Shown here: in pieces, positions 8,378 to 22,540 of the stretch
Layout of the letters: each line of letters starts with the position of its first letter
Position numbering within the stretch: position 1 is the first letter of the stretch
Source: a virus
Reading direction: 5' to 3' (one strand)
IMG/VR virus record: IMGVR_UViG_3300030106_002217
Coordinates: 47,762 to 77,651 of that record
Length of the DNA stretch: 29,890 bases
Notes under the pieces: model-generated
Seen by the model: only the letters and a program-made list of their open reading frames with translations
Told to the model about the DNA's origin: nothing
The model's database searches: none
Made by a program: the position numbers and the translations under genes

Positions 8378-8451
8378 TGGAGAGGGTAGAGGGATTCGAA
8401 CCCTCGTAAATGGTTTTGCAGACCATCTCCTAACCTCTCGGACATACCCTC
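8378..8451 (-). tRNA. tRNA-Cys (anticodon GCA)
   Basis: The 74-base minus-strand sequence folds as a full cloverleaf. The acceptor stem is GAGGGTA/TACCCTC, the anticodon stem ATGGT/ACCAT with loop CTGCAAA (anticodon GCA), and the T arm GAGGG-TTCGAAT-CCCTC. The discriminator base is U, an identity element of tRNA-Cys, and CCA is encoded. It lies between two small genes in the leftward operon and must be cut out of the mRNA. Confidence 0.95.
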
Positions 8452-11032: not shown

Positions 11033-11449
11033 ATGAAAGAAAAACAATTTTTTTTGAATATAAAAAAGCAGTTACCACCAAATACTTTTATACAAAAAAT
11101 TGAAAATAAATTTAATAGTGGTTTTACTGATGTAATAATAATTAATAAAAAACTACCATTATTTATTGAGTTAAAATCGCCAACAAAAGGAAACAAATTT
11201 AAGGTTGAATTGTCCCAAATATCAACGCATTTGAGGATACAAGCCAATAATTATGTTTCTTTTTTCTTGGTTCGACACCCTTCAACCTCGCTTCTATATT
11301 TGTTTGAAGGTGGTTTGCTCTGCAAGTTTCTTGCGTCCCAACCTTGCAACCCTTCTCTGTCCCCCCAGACCGAAGGATTTTTGGTGCGTGGTGCGTTGAA
11401 CATAGTCCTGGCACTTGCAAATCAAAGAGTGGAACAGTTGCAGAAATAA
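11033..11449 (+). CDS. PD-(D/E)XK (VRR-NUC-like) nuclease with repeat-derived tail
   Basis: 138 residues. The core is NSGFTDVIIINKKLPLFIEL followed by KSP, that is D-x12-E-x-K, the PD-(D/E)XK active site, then HLRIQANNYVSFFLVRHP and LYLFEG, as in short VRR-NUC proteins of phages. It would cut structured DNA. From about residue 92 on (LCKFLASQPCNPSL) the sequence loses family character and coincides with a diverged copy of the hairpin repeat found nearby. The stop itself is inside hairpin copy A. The only ribosome signal is AAAGG 12 bases before the ATG. It is a lone plus-strand gene among minus-strand ones. Confidence 0.65.
   Translation: MKEKQFFLNIKKQLPPNTFIQKIENKFNSGFTDVIIINKKLPLFIELKSPTKGNKFKVELSQISTHLRIQANNYVSFFLVRHPSTSLLYLFEGGLLCKFLASQPCNPSLSPQTEGFLVRGALNIVLALANQRVEQLQK
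11299..11336. repeat. Diverged hairpin-repeat copy inside the nuclease tail
   Basis: TTTGCTCTGCAA followed by TTTCTTGC matches the inner part of copy A (ATTGCTCTGCAA then TTTCTGC), with GAAGGTGG in place of GAAGTG. The inner stem TTGC/GCAA is kept; the outer 11-bp stem is not. Confidence 0.4.
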
Positions 11450-11479
11450 CGAAGTGATTGCTCTGCAAATTTCTGCAAC
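11437..11479. repeat. Hairpin repeat copy A
   Basis: A perfect 11-bp stem GTTGCAGAAAT (11437-11447) / ATTTCTGCAAC (11469-11479) encloses a 21-base loop AACGAAGTG + ATTGCTCTGCAA. On the minus strand the loop holds a small inner hairpin TTGC-AGA-GCAA. It covers the stop of the nuclease gene. Confidence 0.75.
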
Positions 11480-11524
11480 TTTTACCACGGAAGGCATCTG
11501 CGATTTTAAAAAAAATTTCTTGAC

Positions 11525-11567
11525 ATCGCAAAGGAAACGAAGTGGTTGCATTGCAATCCTTTGCGAT
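11525..11567. repeat. Hairpin repeat copy B
   Basis: A perfect 11-bp stem ATCGCAAAGGA (11525-11535) / TCCTTTGCGAT (11557-11567) encloses a 21-base loop AACGAAGTG + GTTGCATTGCAA. It has the same size and loop as copy A but a different stem. On the plus strand it ends in TTTTT, so it could stop transcription from the nuclease gene. TTGAC lies directly before it. Confidence 0.75.
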
Positions 11568-11616: not shown

Positions 11617-11642
11617 AAAAAAAAGAGAGCCGAAGCTCTCTT
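11617..11642 (-). terminator. Rho-independent terminator with UUCG loop
   Basis: On the minus strand AAGAGAGC-TTCG-GCTCTCTT is followed by an unbroken T run. It lies just beyond the stop of the gene ending at 11663. Confidence 0.92.
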
Positions 11643-11662: not shown

Positions 11663-12103
11663 CTACCATGAAGCACGATAATGAACACCTCTTGGCTCGA
11701 TATATAAATCGTATTTCTGTTGCATCTCCAGACCTTCCTTCAAGAACTCAATAGCTTTTTCAAAACAACTAATCGCATAGTTTTTTTCTGGCTCGTTGTA
11801 ATAACCGAACTCGGTTGAGTTCCCAAAGAAGAAGCCAGAGTGGTCAAGTTTTAAATTATCGTTGCGAATGGCATCAATAATTTCTTCTAAGTCTTTTTGT
11901 GTTAACTGAATTTCCTGGCAGTTATCTTCACCCTTTGCGAACTTATCAACAATAAAGCCGTGAAGGTCGGCGTGCTTACGCCAATAACCAAGGTCAACTT
12001 TATAATCTGAAATGGCATATTTGCCATCTAACTTCGGTTGAGGAAGTTCCTCGTGATAAGGTGAGTTATATTGCTCACCTCTTAAATACATATCTAAACC
12101 CAT
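11663..12103 (-). CDS. Conserved phage protein (MGLDMYL family), unknown function
   Basis: 146 residues starting MGLDMYLRGEQY. The pattern continues with VDLGYWRKHADLHGFIV near 36-52, then CQEIQLTQKDLEEIIDAI, HSGFFFG near 89-95, and it ends YRASW. This is a family I recognise in many phages; it is sometimes misannotated as phosphoglycerate kinase and has no established role. It forms its own unit with a good promoter (12140-12168), AAAGGAG before the ATG, and a strong UUCG terminator, so it is probably well expressed on its own. Confidence 0.75.
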   Translation of the reverse strand: MGLDMYLRGEQYNSPYHEELPQPKLDGKYAISDYKVDLGYWRKHADLHGFIVDKFAKGEDNCQEIQLTQKDLEEIIDAIRNDNLKLDHSGFFFGNSTEFGYYNEPEKNYAISCFEKAIEFLKEGLEMQQKYDLYIEPRGVHYRASW

Positions 12104-12218: not shown

Positions 12219-12270
12219 ATCGCAAAGGAAACGAAACGAAGTGAAGTGGTCGCTTGCGATCCTTTGCGAT
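12219..12270. repeat. Hairpin repeat copy C
   Basis: The outer stem ATCGCAAAGGA / TCCTTTGCGAT is identical to that of copy B. The 30-base loop is longer because ACGA and AGTG units are doubled. The inner hairpin is TCGC-AA-GCGA instead of TTGC-NNN-GCAA, so both sides changed together. The flanks (A-run then TTCTTGAC before, TTTTTG after) also match copy B. Confidence 0.75.
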
Positions 12271-12348: not shown

Positions 12349-12639
12349 CTATATATAATCTGCAAAGGGATCACGACCAGTTATCTCCTTCTCTGCTTTT
12401 AATGATAGCTTTGGATCATATGGCTCGACATATATGTTTGCCTTTACACAACCATAGTAATCGACATAGTATGATGAACCTCTTTCGAACTTACCACCAA
12501 ACAATCTTTCCCATTCCTTTTTCGCTTTGCGAATGTCTCTGGTTTTGAATTGCTTTCCTCTGCCAATACTATCGACAGTTTCTGTATCAATAACATATTT
12601 AAAATTATAATCGAATGATTGTTTTTTCTTACCCATCAT
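12349..12639 (-). CDS. Small protein of unknown function
   Basis: 96 residues beginning MMGKKKQSFDYNFKYVIDTE. A basic first half (KTRDIRKAKKEWERLFGGKF) is followed by a strand region with YYVDYYGCVKANIYVEPYDP. GAGGAG lies four bases before the first ATG and seven before the second, so translation may begin at 12636. It overlaps the upstream gene by 11 bases and is followed by a terminator. No domain is recognised. Confidence 0.6.
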   Translation of the reverse strand: MMGKKKQSFDYNFKYVIDTETVDSIGRGKQFKTRDIRKAKKEWERLFGGKFERGSSYYVDYYGCVKANIYVEPYDPKLSLKAEKEITGRDPFADYI

Positions 12640-12838
12640 AATGCTCCTCTAAAAAGTCCTTCATTACTTTGGTTGATGATGTGTAAAGAGAACCATTCTC
12701 GTAATACACATTCTCGTTAATAAAGTGTGCAAGATGACCACCACAAATATTGCCCTCATTGTAAGCCTTAAGAATAAACTCGGCAAGATCAATATCTTCT
12801 AAATCATCCCACTCTTTGCTTTGCGAATCTACTGTCAT
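12629..12838 (-). CDS. Small acidic protein of unknown function
   Basis: 69 residues, acidic, helical in its first half (DLEDIDLAEFILKAYNEG), then GGHLAHFINENVYYENGS. AAAGGAAA lies before the ATG, beyond a terminator that ends the coiled-coil gene, so expression here may depend on read-through. No domain is recognised. Confidence 0.6.
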   Translation of the reverse strand: MTVDSQSKEWDDLEDIDLAEFILKAYNEGNICGGHLAHFINENVYYENGSLYTSSTKVMKDFLEEHYDG

Positions 12839-12890: not shown

Positions 12891-13217
12891 CTATTCGTTG
12901 GATGCTTTTGGTGTTGGATTCTCAAGGTTGTAAACCTTTGTCTTGAGTTCAACGATTTGCTCTTGCAAACCCTTGACTACTGACTTCTTGTAAACGGCAG
13001 AATCATCACCGATAATCTTGGAAACTATTGTATCCACGACCACTTGTGCGATTGCAGTTTCATCTAAGTTTTCAACTTGAGATCTGATATCATCGACATC
13101 ATTACGAAGATCTTGAACCACATAAGAGTTGTCAACACACTCGTTGACTTTCTCGTCAATGACTTCTTCGATCTTGTCCGTAATAAAAGATTCGATAGTT
13201 TCGCCAATATCACTCAT
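12891..13217 (-). CDS. Acidic coiled-coil protein, probably strongly expressed
   Basis: 108 residues from ATG at 13217 (MSDIGETIESFITDKIEEVI). The start is set by AAGGAGGTGAT, a full-length match to the 16S rRNA tail; an ATG six codons earlier precedes that site and is ignored. Repeated hydrophobic heptads (VQDLRNDVDDIRSQVENLD and LQEQIVELKTKVYNLEN) indicate coiled coils. With an extended -10 promoter and its own terminator it is set up for high expression as the first leftward transcript from the divergent region. The function is unknown; an early host-takeover protein is a guess. Confidence 0.7.
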   Translation of the reverse strand: MSDIGETIESFITDKIEEVIDEKVNECVDNSYVVQDLRNDVDDIRSQVENLDETAIAQVVVDTIVSKIIGDDSAVYKKSVVKGLQEQIVELKTKVYNLENPTPKASNE

Positions 13218-13242
13218 ATTATCACCTCCTTTCATCTATAAG

Positions 13243-13269: not shown

Positions 13270-13359
13270 GCATATTGCCTACAATATTTTTTGATACTAG
13301 ATATCAGTTTTTATGATGCTCGGTCTGTCTGTCCTTGCAACCCAAAAAATCACTCTTGG

Positions 13360-13522
13360 AAAAAGAATCTAGATTCGCAGAAATTTTCTCAAAGAAAATT
13401 TAGATTCACAAGCTAGAATAAAATAACAATAAAAATAACTAAAATTTTTATTTTATTCTAGATTGGGAAGCGTAATCTATCGACCACTTGGGAGATAGAT
13501 TCTGCGAATCTAGATTCTTTTT
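13360..13522. repeat. Cloverleaf-like set of inverted repeats before terL
   Basis: A perfect 23-bp inverted repeat (13360-13382 with 13500-13522, core GAATCTAGATTCGCAGAA) encloses three further hairpins: ATTTTCT/AGAAAAT (13383-13399, loop CAA), CTAGAATAAAATAA/TTATTTTATTCTAG (13413-13461), and TCTATC/GATAGA (13476-13499). Together they form one closing stem with three arms. The motif TAGATTCGC or close variants occurs twice direct and twice inverted. It lies in a 424-base divergent region with no gene. It could be an origin, a packaging site or a structured RNA. Confidence 0.75.
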
Positions 13523-13568
13523 TAGGGGTTACTTACTACAAAACTACACGACAAACAAAAACAAGAGA

Positions 13569-13591
13569 GGGGGGAGGGGTAGAATGGGGGG
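13569..13591 (+). other. G-rich tract upstream of terL
   Basis: Six G, A, four G, TAGAAT, six G lie in AT-rich DNA about 70 bases before terL. It might form a G-quadruplex or be a strand-specific protein site. Nothing else is recognised in 13523-13659 apart from a weak TTGATA/TATTAT pair. Confidence 0.5.
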
Positions 13592-13659
13592 TACAAACAT
13601 ACACATAGTCATACATATGCAGGGTTGATAAATTCATTTGGATATATTATCGTTGGGAC

Positions 13660-15138
13660 ATGTCACTAGATGCGTTACCCAAAGAGGTGTTACAAGAAGT
13701 ATTTCTGCTAGAACAACAGAAAAACAAACTGGACACCCGTGAAAAAGCACAAGAAAATTTTTTGGATTATGCCCAACATGTATATGAAGGTTTTATCGTT
13801 GGGCGACATCATAAAATTATTGCAGAAAAATTGGAGCTAATCGCACAAGGCAAACTTAAGAGACTGATTGTAAACATGCCACCAAGACACTCGAAGTCAG
13901 AGATGGCATCTTATCTCATGCCCTCGTGGTTCTTGGGACGTAATCCAAAACTCAAGATTATCCAAGCCACGATGAATACAGAGCTTGCCGTAAGGTTTGG
14001 TCGTAAGGTCAGAGACTTGATTGCCGATCCAGTGTACACGGAAGTTTTTCCAGAAACCGATTTGAAGCAAGACAGTCAAGCAGCGGGTCGTTGGGAGACA
14101 AGTGCTGGTGGCGAGTATTTTGCAGCTGGCGTTGGTGCGGCAATGACTGGTCGTGGTGCAGACTTGTTGATTATTGATGACCCACACTCGGAACAAGATG
14201 CACTGTCCTCGGTTGCTTATGATAATACATACGAGTGGTACACATCGGGTCCGAGACAGAGATTACAACCTGGGGGAACCATCATCATTGTGCAAACAAG
14301 ATGGTCAAAGAAAGACCTCACGGGCAGATTAGTCCAGGCTATGGCGAAGGATACCATGTCTGATCAATGGGATATTGTAGAGTTCCCAGCGATTCTACCG
14401 AATGATAAAATTTTGTGGCCCGAGTTTTGGAACAAGGACGAGTTGTTAAAAGTCAAAGCGTCATTGTCACCTATGAAATGGAACGCCCAGTGGCAACAGA
14501 ATCCGACATCTGAAGAAACGGCAATGATCAAAAGGGAGTGGTGGACTCCGTGGGAAGAGAAAGAAGTGCCGAAGTTAGATTATATTTTGCAGTCATATGA
14601 CACGGCATACAGTAAAAAGGAGACAGCAGACTATTCTGCAATTACAACTTGGGGTGTATTTGAGCCAAAAGTCAACGGACAACAGCATTTAATTATGCTT
14701 GATGCGAAGAAAGGGCGCTGGAGTTTTCCAGAGTTGAAGGAGATTGCGATAGAAGAAAACGAATATTGGGAACCAGATATGATGCTTATCGAGGCAAAAG
14801 CCAGTGGTCAACCCTTGGCAGATGAACTGAGAATGATGAATTTACCAGTTTTGACTTTCAGTCCAGGCAGACGCAAAGGGGGTAACTTAGACAAAACGAC
14901 AAGAATGCACATTGTTTCTCCTATTTTCGAATCTGGAAAAGTGTGGTATCCTAGTGGAGAGAAGTTTGCAGAAGATGTAATAGAAGAAGTTGCATCTTTT
15001 CCAAATGGCGATCATGATGACTATTGTGATAGTATGACAATGGCAGTTATGAGATTTAGACAAGGTGGGTTTATCTCACTGGATGGCGAAGACGAAGGAG
15101 AGGACTGGTTTCCTCGATCAAAAAGGGAGTATTACTAA
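13660..15138 (+). CDS. terL: Terminase large subunit
   Basis: 492 residues. The ATPase lobe has a Walker A-like loop PPRHSKS (74-80), Walker B LLIIDD (169-174) and the coupling motif IIIVQTRW. The nuclease lobe starts with the RNase H-like QSYDTAYS (Asp at about 314), followed by MLIEAKASG and DHDDYCDSM acidic motifs. It translocates DNA into the procapsid through the portal and cuts the concatemer. The length is usual for the family. The ribosome site is weak (GGGA). The small subunit lies 7 kb away on the same strand. Its stop shares a base with the next ATG (TAATG). Confidence 0.95.
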   Translation: MSLDALPKEVLQEVFLLEQQKNKLDTREKAQENFLDYAQHVYEGFIVGRHHKIIAEKLELIAQGKLKRLIVNMPPRHSKSEMASYLMPSWFLGRNPKLKIIQATMNTELAVRFGRKVRDLIADPVYTEVFPETDLKQDSQAAGRWETSAGGEYFAAGVGAAMTGRGADLLIIDDPHSEQDALSSVAYDNTYEWYTSGPRQRLQPGGTIIIVQTRWSKKDLTGRLVQAMAKDTMSDQWDIVEFPAILPNDKILWPEFWNKDELLKVKASLSPMKWNAQWQQNPTSEETAMIKREWWTPWEEKEVPKLDYILQSYDTAYSKKETADYSAITTWGVFEPKVNGQQHLIMLDAKKGRWSFPELKEIAIEENEYWEPDMMLIEAKASGQPLADELRMMNLPVLTFSPGRRKGGNLDKTTRMHIVSPIFESGKVWYPSGEKFAEDVIEEVASFPNGDHDDYCDSMTMAVMRFRQGGFISLDGEDEGEDWFPRSKREYY

Positions 15139-19100: not shown

Positions 19101-20147
19101 GCGATTGGCAAAGCATTTAAAAAAGCGGCAAGTGAAGTTTATGATGAGTTTAGAAAAACTGAAAAAAAGATACCTATGATTAGTCAAAGAAATTATGGGG
19201 AGCTTGTTAGAGGTGGATTTAAAAGACCTTCTCTTCTTACTAATTTAATGGGACAAAAGTACAAAAAAGGTGCTTTTACCAAAGACAGTTTTGATAAAGT
19301 ATTAGGAACAAAAAAATATAAAGATTCTCACATACGTCAAGCATATAGTGACTTTATACATAGAAATTTTCAAACAGATATAACTTTTTTAGAATCTGCG
19401 ATTGCTAAAAAAGGACTGACTCAGTTTAATAAAGATAAAAAATATTTAGAGAATCAAATACTAGAGGCACAAGCTCTTCAACAAGATTCTTTTGTTCAAC
19501 TAGAAGAGTTTAATAAAAAAAGAGACCTAGATAAAATATTAGATAACTTAAGAGATAAACTACCAGAAAACTTAAAAAAATCTTTAGAAGAAATTATTAA
19601 ACACCAAAAATTTGGAGATAGCACTAACTTAGAAAAATTTCTTGCAGGCCCTCCAGTATTAGAATACGGACAAATGACAGAACTTATGGTGCATAATGTT
19701 ATAAAAAAAGCAAAAGACATGGGTTTTGAAAGAGTGCATTTCCCATCTATGGACGCTTATGATGACATGGGACAGAGACAATATCTTGGATCAGGCGTAA
19801 AAAGAATACAGTATGGTGATGCAGAAAACAAAACAGCTTATGACTTTTCGATTGGCAGACCTTTGACAAAAGCTCTGAAGAAATATGGAAAAGGATATAT
19901 AACACAAGCAGAAGTTATTGGTAAAAAGAACCCAGTTGTTTCCTCAACTGGAACTGTTCTTGGGGGAGGCACTGGTCAACAAGGCATAGCACGGATAGGA
20001 AAAAAACAAACAAGAGCAAATGCGTTTGACGAAGACCTCCATAGAATAGTAGACTTAACAGTAGATGAGGCGAGTAAGAAAGCAGATTTAAAGATACCAA
20101 GAATGGCAAAAGGTGGTATACTAAGTAAATTTAGAAAGGTAAGTTAA
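16179..20147 (+). CDS. Giant polyvalent-type protein, probable virion-injected protein
   Basis: 1322 residues from ATG at 16179; an in-frame TTG just before it is less likely. Around residues 480-515 it has IPNYFGHVRGTAMVTIDP then LSINEIQSNQ, resembling the EIQSD-bearing module of large polyvalent phage proteins. Around residue 1186 VHFPSMDAYDDMG and later AYDFSIGRPLTKALKKYGK resemble the partner segment of that module. The long middle is charged and helical. Such giant proteins are usually packaged and enter the host with the DNA. It lies directly before the portal gene and overlaps it by one base. The domain match is by eye and no enzyme activity is claimed. Confidence 0.55.
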   Translation: MSTSIGGKDYNPQTLDQTVTDLKRIGKGLLVGETADILGLPADLLGLYYDVRYGETPEGIQSLIDVAGSEALAKRFMGEDFPEFGMNLESAGRVMAPGALLAKGIATARLAARGGDMFPPSNNSAGYALATVGDGAKVDVVEEVPDTIGERLFMTQADEGGQAKKIRQDDEKFFEEGLNVDVEASLNPDRTIFSNLLNELEKIGKTSSRLSILEPRMIPKRVNGQIVKDATGKVVKEPGPSLIRGIDFKQQPTGRELLAYFTNDLKPEFSKKFGGMGLKDSGGSGLQSRLGKEAVETGLIRYLENNPDKVITKEELINAASLFKPNIKMSVYSKNEEASLAEQKKNLINSMVGLSDSDPRKAKIVDAIKIIQEKIDNYSAHNPWTHDGIQMIKVQDLGSVQNPQTAGKLNSNNQSLVRTDNVTFLFSGDKGFETFMGKSVDKASSNEIDRKINEIDDYFKAMGETTSLKKLGLGNNHGYAIPNYFGHVRGTAMVTIDPATGKEYKTLSINEIQSNQAGKKEKRVNAEDAKLMAELNRLNEKRKNVPGLNDAEQAKYNRLKKKTEDSVIGTPKVLTNKTRMDALKIVEEDRKLGTGFVKFAEEKDILQKDFDKKTTKMETLEREFSKLNDGVGGLKRALFKTDESLNRDRILLSDFRKAKAKIIEDLEAATDIPASRLGRSYGTPIGIDREEKMPKVLASLFFRNHDNYGEHLAGGRGFDSFDIATILDNKNPLEGKFFGPRSPINLGNPENLDELKELKQIAKTKYGTEGNTDILQDVFALKDNDLNYDFKLSNYPHAQGAFPERRVDITDIGMLREHYEDIGQLYDNDLISESTYKLYAQKPPTYEDYIEIKRKVDPDYFMDKDNVKATISHLVNDRERKIEAGYANSLIFNKVMNDPEVTKLLESDNVVEIRDRLEALNKQQRLNAEQGIPQDNASYYAELDKIKDDLKTDFGVQMTDFGSSGQDFALVDYGAIGKAFKKAASEVYDEFRKTEKKIPMISQRNYGELVRGGFKRPSLLTNLMGQKYKKGAFTKDSFDKVLGTKKYKDSHIRQAYSDFIHRNFQTDITFLESAIAKKGLTQFNKDKKYLENQILEAQALQQDSFVQLEEFNKKRDLDKILDNLRDKLPENLKKSLEEIIKHQKFGDSTNLEKFLAGPPVLEYGQMTELMVHNVIKKAKDMGFERVHFPSMDAYDDMGQRQYLGSGVKRIQYGDAENKTAYDFSIGRPLTKALKKYGKGYITQAEVIGKKNPVVSSTGTVLGGGTGQQGIARIGKKQTRANAFDEDLHRIVDLTVDEASKKADLKIPRMAKGGILSKFRKVS

Positions 20148-22540
20148 TGGCAAGAGAACCAATGCAAATAGCACCAATGGTGGATAAAAGTGTGGGAGCT
20201 GGTGGAACAGTTGAACCAGAAGCCGATAGTTTACAAGTTGAATTAGATGATGTTGGTGAAACATTACCAGAGGGTATAGAGCTCGACACTGGCGAACAAA
20301 TGGAAGTTATGGCAGAACAGTATGACCATAATGCTAATCTTGCAGAAGTTATGGAAGATGGTGTTTTAGCTTCTCTTGCTTCTGATTTACAAGCAAAAGT
20401 CAAAGAAGATTTAGAATCAAGGTCAGATTGGGAAGAAGCCATAGCCAAGGGACTTAATTTACTTGGTATAAACTATGAAGACAGAAGCGATCCGTTTCTT
20501 GGTGCAAGTGGTGTAACACATCCGTTATTGTCAGAAGCTACAACACAGTTCCAAGCACAAGCCTACAAAGAAATGTTACCAAGTGGTGGCCCAGTAAAAA
20601 CACAAATACTCGGCGTTCCAACAAAACAAACAGAAGATCAAGCACAAAGAATTAAAGACTACATGAACTATCAAATAACAGAGGTCATGGAAGAATACGA
20701 CCAAGACACTGATCAAATGCTTTTCTATTTGCCACTCACTGGTTCTACTTTTAAAAAAGTTTACTTCGATCCAACCAAACAAAGAGCTGTATCTAAGTTT
20801 GTACCAGCAGAAGATTTGATTGTTCCTTACTCTGCTTCTGATATAAGAACTTCAGAAAGAGTGACACACATGGTAAGAATGAGTTATAATGAAATTCGTA
20901 AATTACAAGTGGCTGGAGTATACAAAGATGTGGAGTTATCTAGTTCAGATACTGGAGAAGATGAAGGATCTATCCAAGAAACAACTAACGAGCTTCAAGG
21001 ATTATATCCAAATTATTCAGATGATAGTTACACCTTACTTGAAGTTCATGTGGACTTGGACTTGGAGGGTTTTGAAGATCTGGATAGTCAAGGGCAGCCT
21101 TCGGGTATTATGCTCCCTTATATTGTTACCATTGATCAAAATTCTGGCGAAGTTCTATCAGTGGTTAGAAACTTTAGAGAGCAAGATCCGTTAAAAAGAA
21201 AGAGGCAATATTTTGTACATTTTAAGTTTTTACCAGGTTTTGGATTTTATGGTTTTGGATTATTACATACAATCGGTGGTTTGTCTCGTGCAGCCACATC
21301 AATATTAAGGCAGTTAATCGATGCAGGCACTTTATCAAATCTTCCAGCTGGTTTCAAAGCGAGAGGTGTTCGTATTCGTAATGATGACGATCCTCTTAAT
21401 CCTGGTGAGTTCAGAGATATCGATGTCCCAGGTGGAGATCTCAAAAATTCAATCATCCCATTGCCATATAAAGAACCATCTGGCACACTAGCACAACTTT
21501 TAGGGGTTATTGTTGACTCTGGTAGACGCTTTGCACAAGTTGCAGACGCAAAAATTAGTGATGTAAACTCACAAGCACCAGTAGGAACGACTGTAGCGTT
21601 GATTGAACAAGGCTCAAAAATTATTTCAAGCATACATAAGCGTTTACATTACGGACAAAAACAAGAATTTAGAATGTTGGCAGAGATTTTTTCGGAAAAT
21701 CCTATACCTTATCCGTATTTTGTAGGTAATGTTGCACCACAAATCATGGCAAATGACTTTGATGGACGTATAGATGTGCTTCCAGTAAGTGATCCAAGTA
21801 TTTTTTCTATGGCACAGAGGCTATCTTTGGCACAAACACAGTTACAATTAGCACAAGCTGCACCAAATTTACACAATCAATACGAAGCGTACCGAAGAAT
21901 GTACGATGCACTAGATATTAAGAACATAGATGGCATATTACCACCGCCACAACCACCTGCACCAGTGGATCCAGCAACAGAAAATGCTAATTCTATTAAA
22001 GGTATGCCTTTACAAGCATTTCCACAACAAGATCACGAAGCACATTTAGTGGCACATGCTACGTTTTTAGCAAATTTAGCGTCACAAGCTAATCCTCAAG
22101 GGTACGCTTTACTACAATCACATGTTCAAGAGCATGTTGGTTTGTTAGCAAGAGATCAAGTAACTAAATTTTTTCAACTTGCGATCCAAGATGCTATAGC
22201 AAAAGGTGAACAGCCCGTTCCACCAACTCCAGAAGCTATTGAAGCGGCAATTTCTCAACAAATTGGTGAAATATTGAAGGAAGTTATGCCAGTTATTGAG
22301 CCAGCACAGAAACCAGACCCTCTTGTAGACATAAGGCAGAAAGAATTAGAAAACGATACGGCTGAAATACAAAGAAAGTCTATAAATGACATGATGAACT
22401 TCCAAATTGACCAAGCTAAACTACAACAAGCGTTTGAATTGGCACAACAAAGAAAAGAAACGCAAGAACAGATAGCAGAAGACCGTAATGATGTTAATAT
22501 TTATAGGATAAACACACAGGCTTCTCTGAAAGGAAAGTAA
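20147..22540 (+). CDS. Portal protein, P22-like
   Basis: 797 residues, the size of P22-type portals. It has a long acidic N-terminus, then SDWEEAIAKGLNLLG, the FLGASGVTHPLL segment, DYMNYQITEVMEEYDQDTDQ, LPLTGSTFKKVYFDP and FVPAEDLIVPYSA, all typical of this portal type. A long coiled C-terminal region with Gln/Ala repeats (near 590-790) suits the barrel. It forms the dodecameric ring at the head vertex through which terminase pumps DNA. Its ATG shares a base with the stop of the giant gene. Confidence 0.92.
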   Translation: MAREPMQIAPMVDKSVGAGGTVEPEADSLQVELDDVGETLPEGIELDTGEQMEVMAEQYDHNANLAEVMEDGVLASLASDLQAKVKEDLESRSDWEEAIAKGLNLLGINYEDRSDPFLGASGVTHPLLSEATTQFQAQAYKEMLPSGGPVKTQILGVPTKQTEDQAQRIKDYMNYQITEVMEEYDQDTDQMLFYLPLTGSTFKKVYFDPTKQRAVSKFVPAEDLIVPYSASDIRTSERVTHMVRMSYNEIRKLQVAGVYKDVELSSSDTGEDEGSIQETTNELQGLYPNYSDDSYTLLEVHVDLDLEGFEDLDSQGQPSGIMLPYIVTIDQNSGEVLSVVRNFREQDPLKRKRQYFVHFKFLPGFGFYGFGLLHTIGGLSRAATSILRQLIDAGTLSNLPAGFKARGVRIRNDDDPLNPGEFRDIDVPGGDLKNSIIPLPYKEPSGTLAQLLGVIVDSGRRFAQVADAKISDVNSQAPVGTTVALIEQGSKIISSIHKRLHYGQKQEFRMLAEIFSENPIPYPYFVGNVAPQIMANDFDGRIDVLPVSDPSIFSMAQRLSLAQTQLQLAQAAPNLHNQYEAYRRMYDALDIKNIDGILPPPQPPAPVDPATENANSIKGMPLQAFPQQDHEAHLVAHATFLANLASQANPQGYALLQSHVQEHVGLLARDQVTKFFQLAIQDAIAKGEQPVPPTPEAIEAAISQQIGEILKEVMPVIEPAQKPDPLVDIRQKELENDTAEIQRKSINDMMNFQIDQAKLQQAFELAQQRKETQEQIAEDRNDVNIYRINTQASLKGK

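Follow-up and report, generated by a model that had tools for sequence, protein, structure and literature searches.

A covarying four-helix element upstream of terL and its hairpin relatives in a cassette locus of uncultivated marine phages

Outside the T4-type phages, little is understood of how lytic phages exchange small accessory genes while keeping their transcription programme intact. The locus described here opens this question to direct tests, and we asked what the structured element before its terL is and what it may do there. The window, meaning the whole stretch of 29,890 nucleotides analysed, spans positions 47762-77651 of a 77.6-kb viral contig (G000:C1). It carries terL on the + strand (13660..15138, assigned from search matches), and the genes between 8861 and 13235 all point leftward in the list of open reading frames except for a nuclease gene (11033..11449, + strand). 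The element, E4 (13360..13522, with no strand assigned), sits at the point of divergence. The contig has two terL genes (58% amino acid identity; L086:7157-8611 and window 13660-15138) and two portal genes (52%; L086:11123-13528 and window 20147-22540), is collinear with one circle of its relative G001 plus a divergent repeat, and is probably a chimeric assembly joining two related phages; E4 and its flanks recur in the independent contigs L002 and L003. TerL is nearest to that of HTVC027P/HTVC023P-type phages, the contig encodes a family A DNA polymerase, and most of the evidence presented here comes from metagenomic contigs, the setting being a clade of uncultivated marine tailed phages. The reading that we prefer, to which we give about an even chance, is that E4 belongs to a family of hairpins punctuating a shuffling cassette locus, where it would serve as terminator or insulator and as recombination junction.

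The four-helix element upstream of terL

E4 is a real structure that has been kept by evolution, as judged from its folds, its outer repeat and its covariation in 11 relatives. The initial annotation had described a perfect 23-bp inverted repeat enclosing three hairpins, and the outer stem proved exact to the base (13360-13382 / 13500-13522). The inner hairpins are likewise present, though not with the 7, 14 and 6 pairs reported for them: the first (13381-13401) has 9 bp, the middle one (13405-13469) about 20-26 bp with three mismatches and the third (13474-13501) 8+2 bp. Repeats of TAGATT occur within the element as claimed, an A-run and a T-run lie at its ends, and no open reading frame of at least 60 amino acids runs over it. 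The longest perfect stem before terL measured 23 bp against a maximum of 14 in 1000 dinucleotide shuffles (360 nt). RNA folding of 13350-13530 gave -70.6 kcal/mol (z -12.2) for the + strand and z -9.8 for the - strand, and DNA folding of E4 gave z -13.4 and -11.5; on each strand, that is, folding is about 10-13 standard deviations better than for shuffles. A tRNA-like cloverleaf and a known structured RNA family were both considered as identities for E4 and dropped, since ARAGORN, scanning for tRNA and tmRNA, found no match in it and the Rfam covariance models had none either, their sole match in the window being a tRNA elsewhere. The window has a tRNA-Cys gene at 8378-8451 (- strand). A DNA search with the whole of E4 among annotated phages found nothing related.

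The initial annotation had proposed covariation in relatives as the test of the structure, and there the structure is indeed maintained through compensatory changes. A terL search of viral contigs yielded 80 loci, and an alignment drawn from 16 four-helix contigs, the window and these terL loci comprised 11 distinct sequences. Although the four-helix relatives had been picked by their middle hairpin only, all 11 sequences possess the outer stem. Fourteen pairs changed on both sides across the four helices, with a covariation score of 0.212 compared with 0.064 for shuffled and at most 0.049 for slid alignments, and the outer helix, paired at 100%, showed five two-sided pair changes and not a single one-sided change.

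Nearly every relative whose terL is at least about 80% identical in nucleotide sequence, and for which enough upstream sequence is available, shows a strong hairpin upstream of terL; most of these hairpins end in an A-run and a T-run, and their arm sequences differ. Most relatives near 77% lack a strong hairpin there, and nothing comparable precedes terL in the isolates HTVC027P, DSL-LC04, 023Pt_psg01 and HTVC023P (TerL 53-59% identical). The type of hairpin does not follow the identity of terL: the E4 arms of L004 (terL 95.3% identical) and L005 (94.6%) are unrelated to those of the window, whereas those of L034 (84.9%) are almost the same, and E4 has therefore been exchanged independently of terL. 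Separately, we observed that five loci without the big hairpin (L033, L035, L041, L044 and L049) carry repeated TTAACATGTTAA-type palindromes upstream of terL, which are possibly operator sites.

This distribution bears on the proposal that E4 is a cis-acting DNA site for replication or packaging, such as an origin, a primosome-like single-strand site or pac. Its position at the divergence point and its retention in nearly all of the closer relatives would fit such a site, as would a local GC-skew extremum near terL in G001 and G002. The skew check, suggested by the initial annotation as a sign of an origin, did return an extremum in the right place, but skew tracks the direction of transcription, which changes at the same point, so the check is uninformative. 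Wholesale replacement of the E4 sequence between close relatives, the lack of a strong hairpin in most relatives near 77% and the presence of up to five elements per genome, spread over 2.5 kb among cassette genes, all argue against a fixed site, and we consider this explanation improbable. More generally, the origin, packaging site and late-operon leader RNA originally offered for E4 gained no specific support. Related hairpins also lie far from terL, among the cassette genes, and shuffle together with them.

Between E4 and terL the + strand carries GGGGTTACT (13525..13533), which many relatives keep after, inside or overlapping their hairpin, and a GGGGGGAGGGG run (13569..13579). In some close relatives, L004 and L006 among them, CCCCCACCCCC replaces GGGGGGAGGGG, and L021/L022 carry both. 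A sigma70-like candidate terL promoter, TTGATA-17-TATCGT (13625..13653, + strand), is a weak match (9/12) to consensus only, and similar sequence occurs in relatives; because it lies downstream of E4, E4 is probably outside the terL leader. Promoter-like matches in the region number 13 against 8.5 expected, hardly above chance.

Related hairpins between the nuclease gene and terL

E4 does not stand alone. Three smaller elements lie to its left, all on the + strand: E1 (11436..11480; arm AGTTGCAGAAAT, loop AACGAAGTGATTGCTCTGCAA) overlaps the nuclease gene at its stop codon, E2 (11525..11567) combines arm ATCGCAAAGGA and loop AACGAAGTGGTTGCATTGCAA with a following TTTTT, and E3 (12219..12270) has an arm identical to that of E2 and a longer loop. 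We assign them to class I, the commonest form, defined by a 10-15 bp arm, the loop AACGAAGTGGTCGC-N1-3-TGCGA, the complementary arm and then a T-run. The loop holds two mini-hairpins, AC-GAA-GT and TCGC..GCGA, which covary, C-G becoming T-A in 11 of 47 elements and TCGC/GCGA becoming TTGC/GCAA in three of the 47; L009 and L015 have the variant TCCC/GGGA. Across these 47 elements the covariation score was 0.503 compared with 0.164 and all 12 outer pairs had changed on both sides, though the set had been chosen for having a stem and selection by the loop alone is the fairer test. In that test, 35 distinct viral copies had Watson-Crick arms at 94-100% for each of the first 10 positions, and nine of the 10 cellular matches had no arms.

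A conserved loop with two covarying mini-hairpins, together with the strong RNA fold of E4 and the T-run at the 3' end, might point to a structured non-coding RNA, either regulatory or a phage-encoded small RNA, transcribed from the elements. Rfam, however, offers no match, there is no convincing promoter just upstream of E4, and the outer stems are almost devoid of G-T pairs despite their divergence in sequence, so that a function in DNA or on both strands fits better than one in single-stranded RNA. We accordingly give the RNA explanation a low probability.

In a second form, class II (for example L022), the arm runs on into TCGCAA..TTGCGA around an A-rich loop. Two loci have identical outer arms in the identical place, L030 with a class II and L031 with a class I loop, and this suggests that the core of the element has been exchanged.

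A scan for perfect hairpins showed that most genomes have further copies, at most five altogether, within the approximately 2.5 kb from the nuclease gene to terL, and hairpins of this form were found nowhere else in the 60 kb of G001 and G002. Within the window, E1, E2 and E3 are the only significant + strand matches of the class I covariance model, which has no match in the contig's other 48 kb; a search with the class I consensus among annotated phages likewise found nothing related. The class I strand is that of terL in all 31 copies, and in a wider set of loci, most of them retrieved through the loop pattern, 84 of 84 copies lie on the strand of terL or of the nuclease gene. No contig retrieved by the loop alone lacks both the nuclease and terL. 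Many marine virus contigs have this compact locus, in which a recognisable, strongly covarying boundary element keeps one polarity and lies beside a candidate enzyme, and a covariance model of the element could be used to find cassette loci in uncultivated phages.

We place E4 in this family because of its TCGCAGAA/TTCTGCGA inner arm, its T-run, its position in the same array, an upstream box that it has in common with E3 and the intermediate case of L009 and L015, where a class I-type loop sits inside the terL-proximal hairpin. The box, TGCAACYC-AAAA, precedes 16 of 111 elements compared with 1.5% of random positions and is therefore enriched, yet confined to a minority. The link between E4 and class I is one of architecture rather than of full-length alignment, and on this basis E4 is the largest, terL-proximal member of a previously undescribed family of perfect-hairpin elements.

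Cassette turnover and the likely role of the elements

Near-identical phages differ by gain, loss or replacement of the small genes that the elements flank. In the window, a 146-aa cassette gene (11663..12103, - strand) lies between E2 and E3, and three small leftward genes (12349-12639, 12629-12838 and 12891-13235, - strand) lie between E3 and E4. Compared with the window, L006 has lost the gene at 11663-12103 cleanly, the junction falling inside an element; what remains is one element that has the left flank of E2 on one side and the right flank of E3 on the other. Cassette indels of 400-1100 bp were compared pairwise, and the left break falls at an element in 19 of the 20 cases, although elements cover only 7-19% of the compared regions; the right break falls inside an element in eight of the 20, and several others begin shortly before one. 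These 20 comparisons are related by ancestry and may represent perhaps six to eight independent events.

From the observed structure, polarity, restriction to the locus and shuffling we infer two activities, namely that the elements probably act as transcription stops and as recombination junctions. A long stem followed by a T-run would make an element a transcription stop or insulator, and E4, with its additional A-run, may stop transcription in both directions. Such insulation would let a foreign gene insert while leaving the early/late boundary at terL undisturbed. The same element would offer a patch of common sequence and secondary structure at which co-infecting phages could recombine and thereby exchange cassettes. 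Plain homologous recombination at repeats would, however, give identical junctions with no dedicated role for the structure.

The stem and following T-run are those of an intrinsic terminator, and E4, with the A-run at its other end, resembles a bidirectional Rho-independent one; termination by the elements would follow from this likeness. The elements differ from ordinary terminators in the stems of 20 bp or more in E4 and class II, in their large structured loops with conserved sequence, and in positions that do not follow the 3' ends of genes. The cassette genes occur in both orientations, and 10 of the 31 class I copies have a leftward gene on either side, neither of which would be served by a terminator acting rightward; this speaks against a simple terminator role. 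So does the separate existence of ordinary TTCG-loop terminators, such as that of a leftward gene at 11617..11642 (no strand assigned); our terminator scan was limited to loops of 3-8, so the elements could not be listed by it.

Stem-loops of this kind recall the promoter early stem-loops (PeSLs) of T4-type phages, reportedly treated in Arbiol 2010 (doi 10.1093/gbe/evq006) and Comeau 2014 (doi 10.1093/gbe/evu129). PeSLs mediate gene shuffling (PMC4503421). As with PeSLs, several stem-loops per genome punctuate the small genes of a hypervariable region, and gene-shuffling junctions fall at the stem-loops, the events in our case being partly non-independent. In contrast to PeSLs, class I copies all have one orientation irrespective of the genes, and they have a conserved AACGAAGTGGTCGC..TGCGA internal loop and, in E4, a four-helix form. 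An early promoter coupled to each stem-loop belongs to the PeSL type, and promoter-like matches in our region are close to the number expected by chance. Since the phage is not T4-type, as its TerL and its family A DNA polymerase indicate, and promoter coupling is no more than a possibility here, we suggest that the elements may work like PeSLs and do not claim membership.

The extended start-associated sequences (ESAS) of cluster K mycobacteriophages, inverted repeats of approximately 17 bp before genes and of unknown function (PMC3203893), offer another parallel in that inverted repeats recur before phage genes. ESAS are imperfect, have 4-13 bp spacers, conform to a single consensus within each genome and are linked with start-associated sequences (PMC3203893), whereas the elements described here have perfect arms that vary between copies, loops of 10-120 nt and an association with cassette borders.

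The adjacent nuclease and copies outside the phages

The array is bordered on the left by the nuclease gene, whose product is a 138-aa PD-(D/E)XK protein in which E24, D33, E46 (E46-x-K48), K48 and Q62 are invariant. Its predicted structure (pLDDT 83.5) is closest in Foldseek to RecU and the archaeal Hjc Holliday junction resolvases (E about 0.002) and also resembles the homing endonuclease I-Ssp6803I. With a RecU/Hjc/VRR-Nuc-type fold and conserved acidic residues, sequence profiles alone being weak, the modelled protein appears Holliday-junction-resolvase-like, and it may cleave four-way junctions. Stand-alone VRR-Nuc proteins from phages and bacteria cut four-way junctions (PMC4103454). A functional link between nuclease and E4 is attractive because an extruded E4 would be just such a junction.

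One may then imagine a dedicated exchange system, integron- or homing-like, in which the nuclease cuts extruded hairpins and break repair inserts or swaps cassettes. The overlap of E1 with the nuclease stop codon, the presence of nuclease or terL in every contig found by the loop, the invariant catalytic-type residues and the way in which stems remain perfect as their sequence changes would all agree with this. Against it, the Foldseek E-values are only about 1e-3, and in the distant phages L066-L081 the nuclease adjoins terL with no such hairpins present, so the enzyme may serve packaging or replication instead. We regard such a system as rather unlikely, and give only a slim chance to the more specific proposal that a virus-encoded resolvase-like nuclease acts on cruciform cassette-boundary elements to provide an integron-like function without an integrase.

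The likeness to integrons and attC sites lies in hairpin-separated cassettes, in structure that is kept while sequence varies and in the adjacent gene for a DNA-processing enzyme; the differences are that cassette genes here occur in both orientations and that the neighbour is a resolvase-like nuclease. Neither a tyrosine recombinase (PF00589) nor a serine recombinase was found in the contig, which is possibly chimeric or incomplete, and alignment A1 shows no attC core sites at the hairpin ends. Integron membership was dropped for want of either recombinase, whose absence from the contig also weighs against a dedicated exchange system, as does that of a Y1 transposase (PF01797), the enzyme expected of REP/RAYT or IS200/IS605 elements.

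The elements might alternatively be selfish palindromic repeats, MITE- or REP-like, accumulating in the locus. Dispersed related copies would be expected of such repeats, and one of them lies outside the phages: a Prevotellaceae MAG contig (G009:C236; L150:8054-8149) has a 38-bp inverted repeat (92%) around an identical 20-nt loop, AACGAAGTGGTCGCTTGCGA. The phage copies, however, are confined to one 2.5-kb locus and one strand, their arms differ, and no Y1 transposase accompanies them in the contig, which makes this explanation very unlikely. Hairpin punctuation of a shuffling cassette locus is still the reading that we prefer. The exact AACGAAGTGGTCGCTTGCGA loop in L150 nevertheless means that the element family extends beyond these phages. 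When bacterial genomes were searched throughout for the class I loop, this was the one real case; the other matches were roughly as many as chance would give and had no stems, and relatives of the Prevotellaceae genome gave weak matches only. One relative, G096, has at L154, between genes, a perfect hairpin almost 30 bp long, CCGCAAAGACACAAAGGAACGCAA.., the arms of which resemble the phage arm consensus YGCARAGR.
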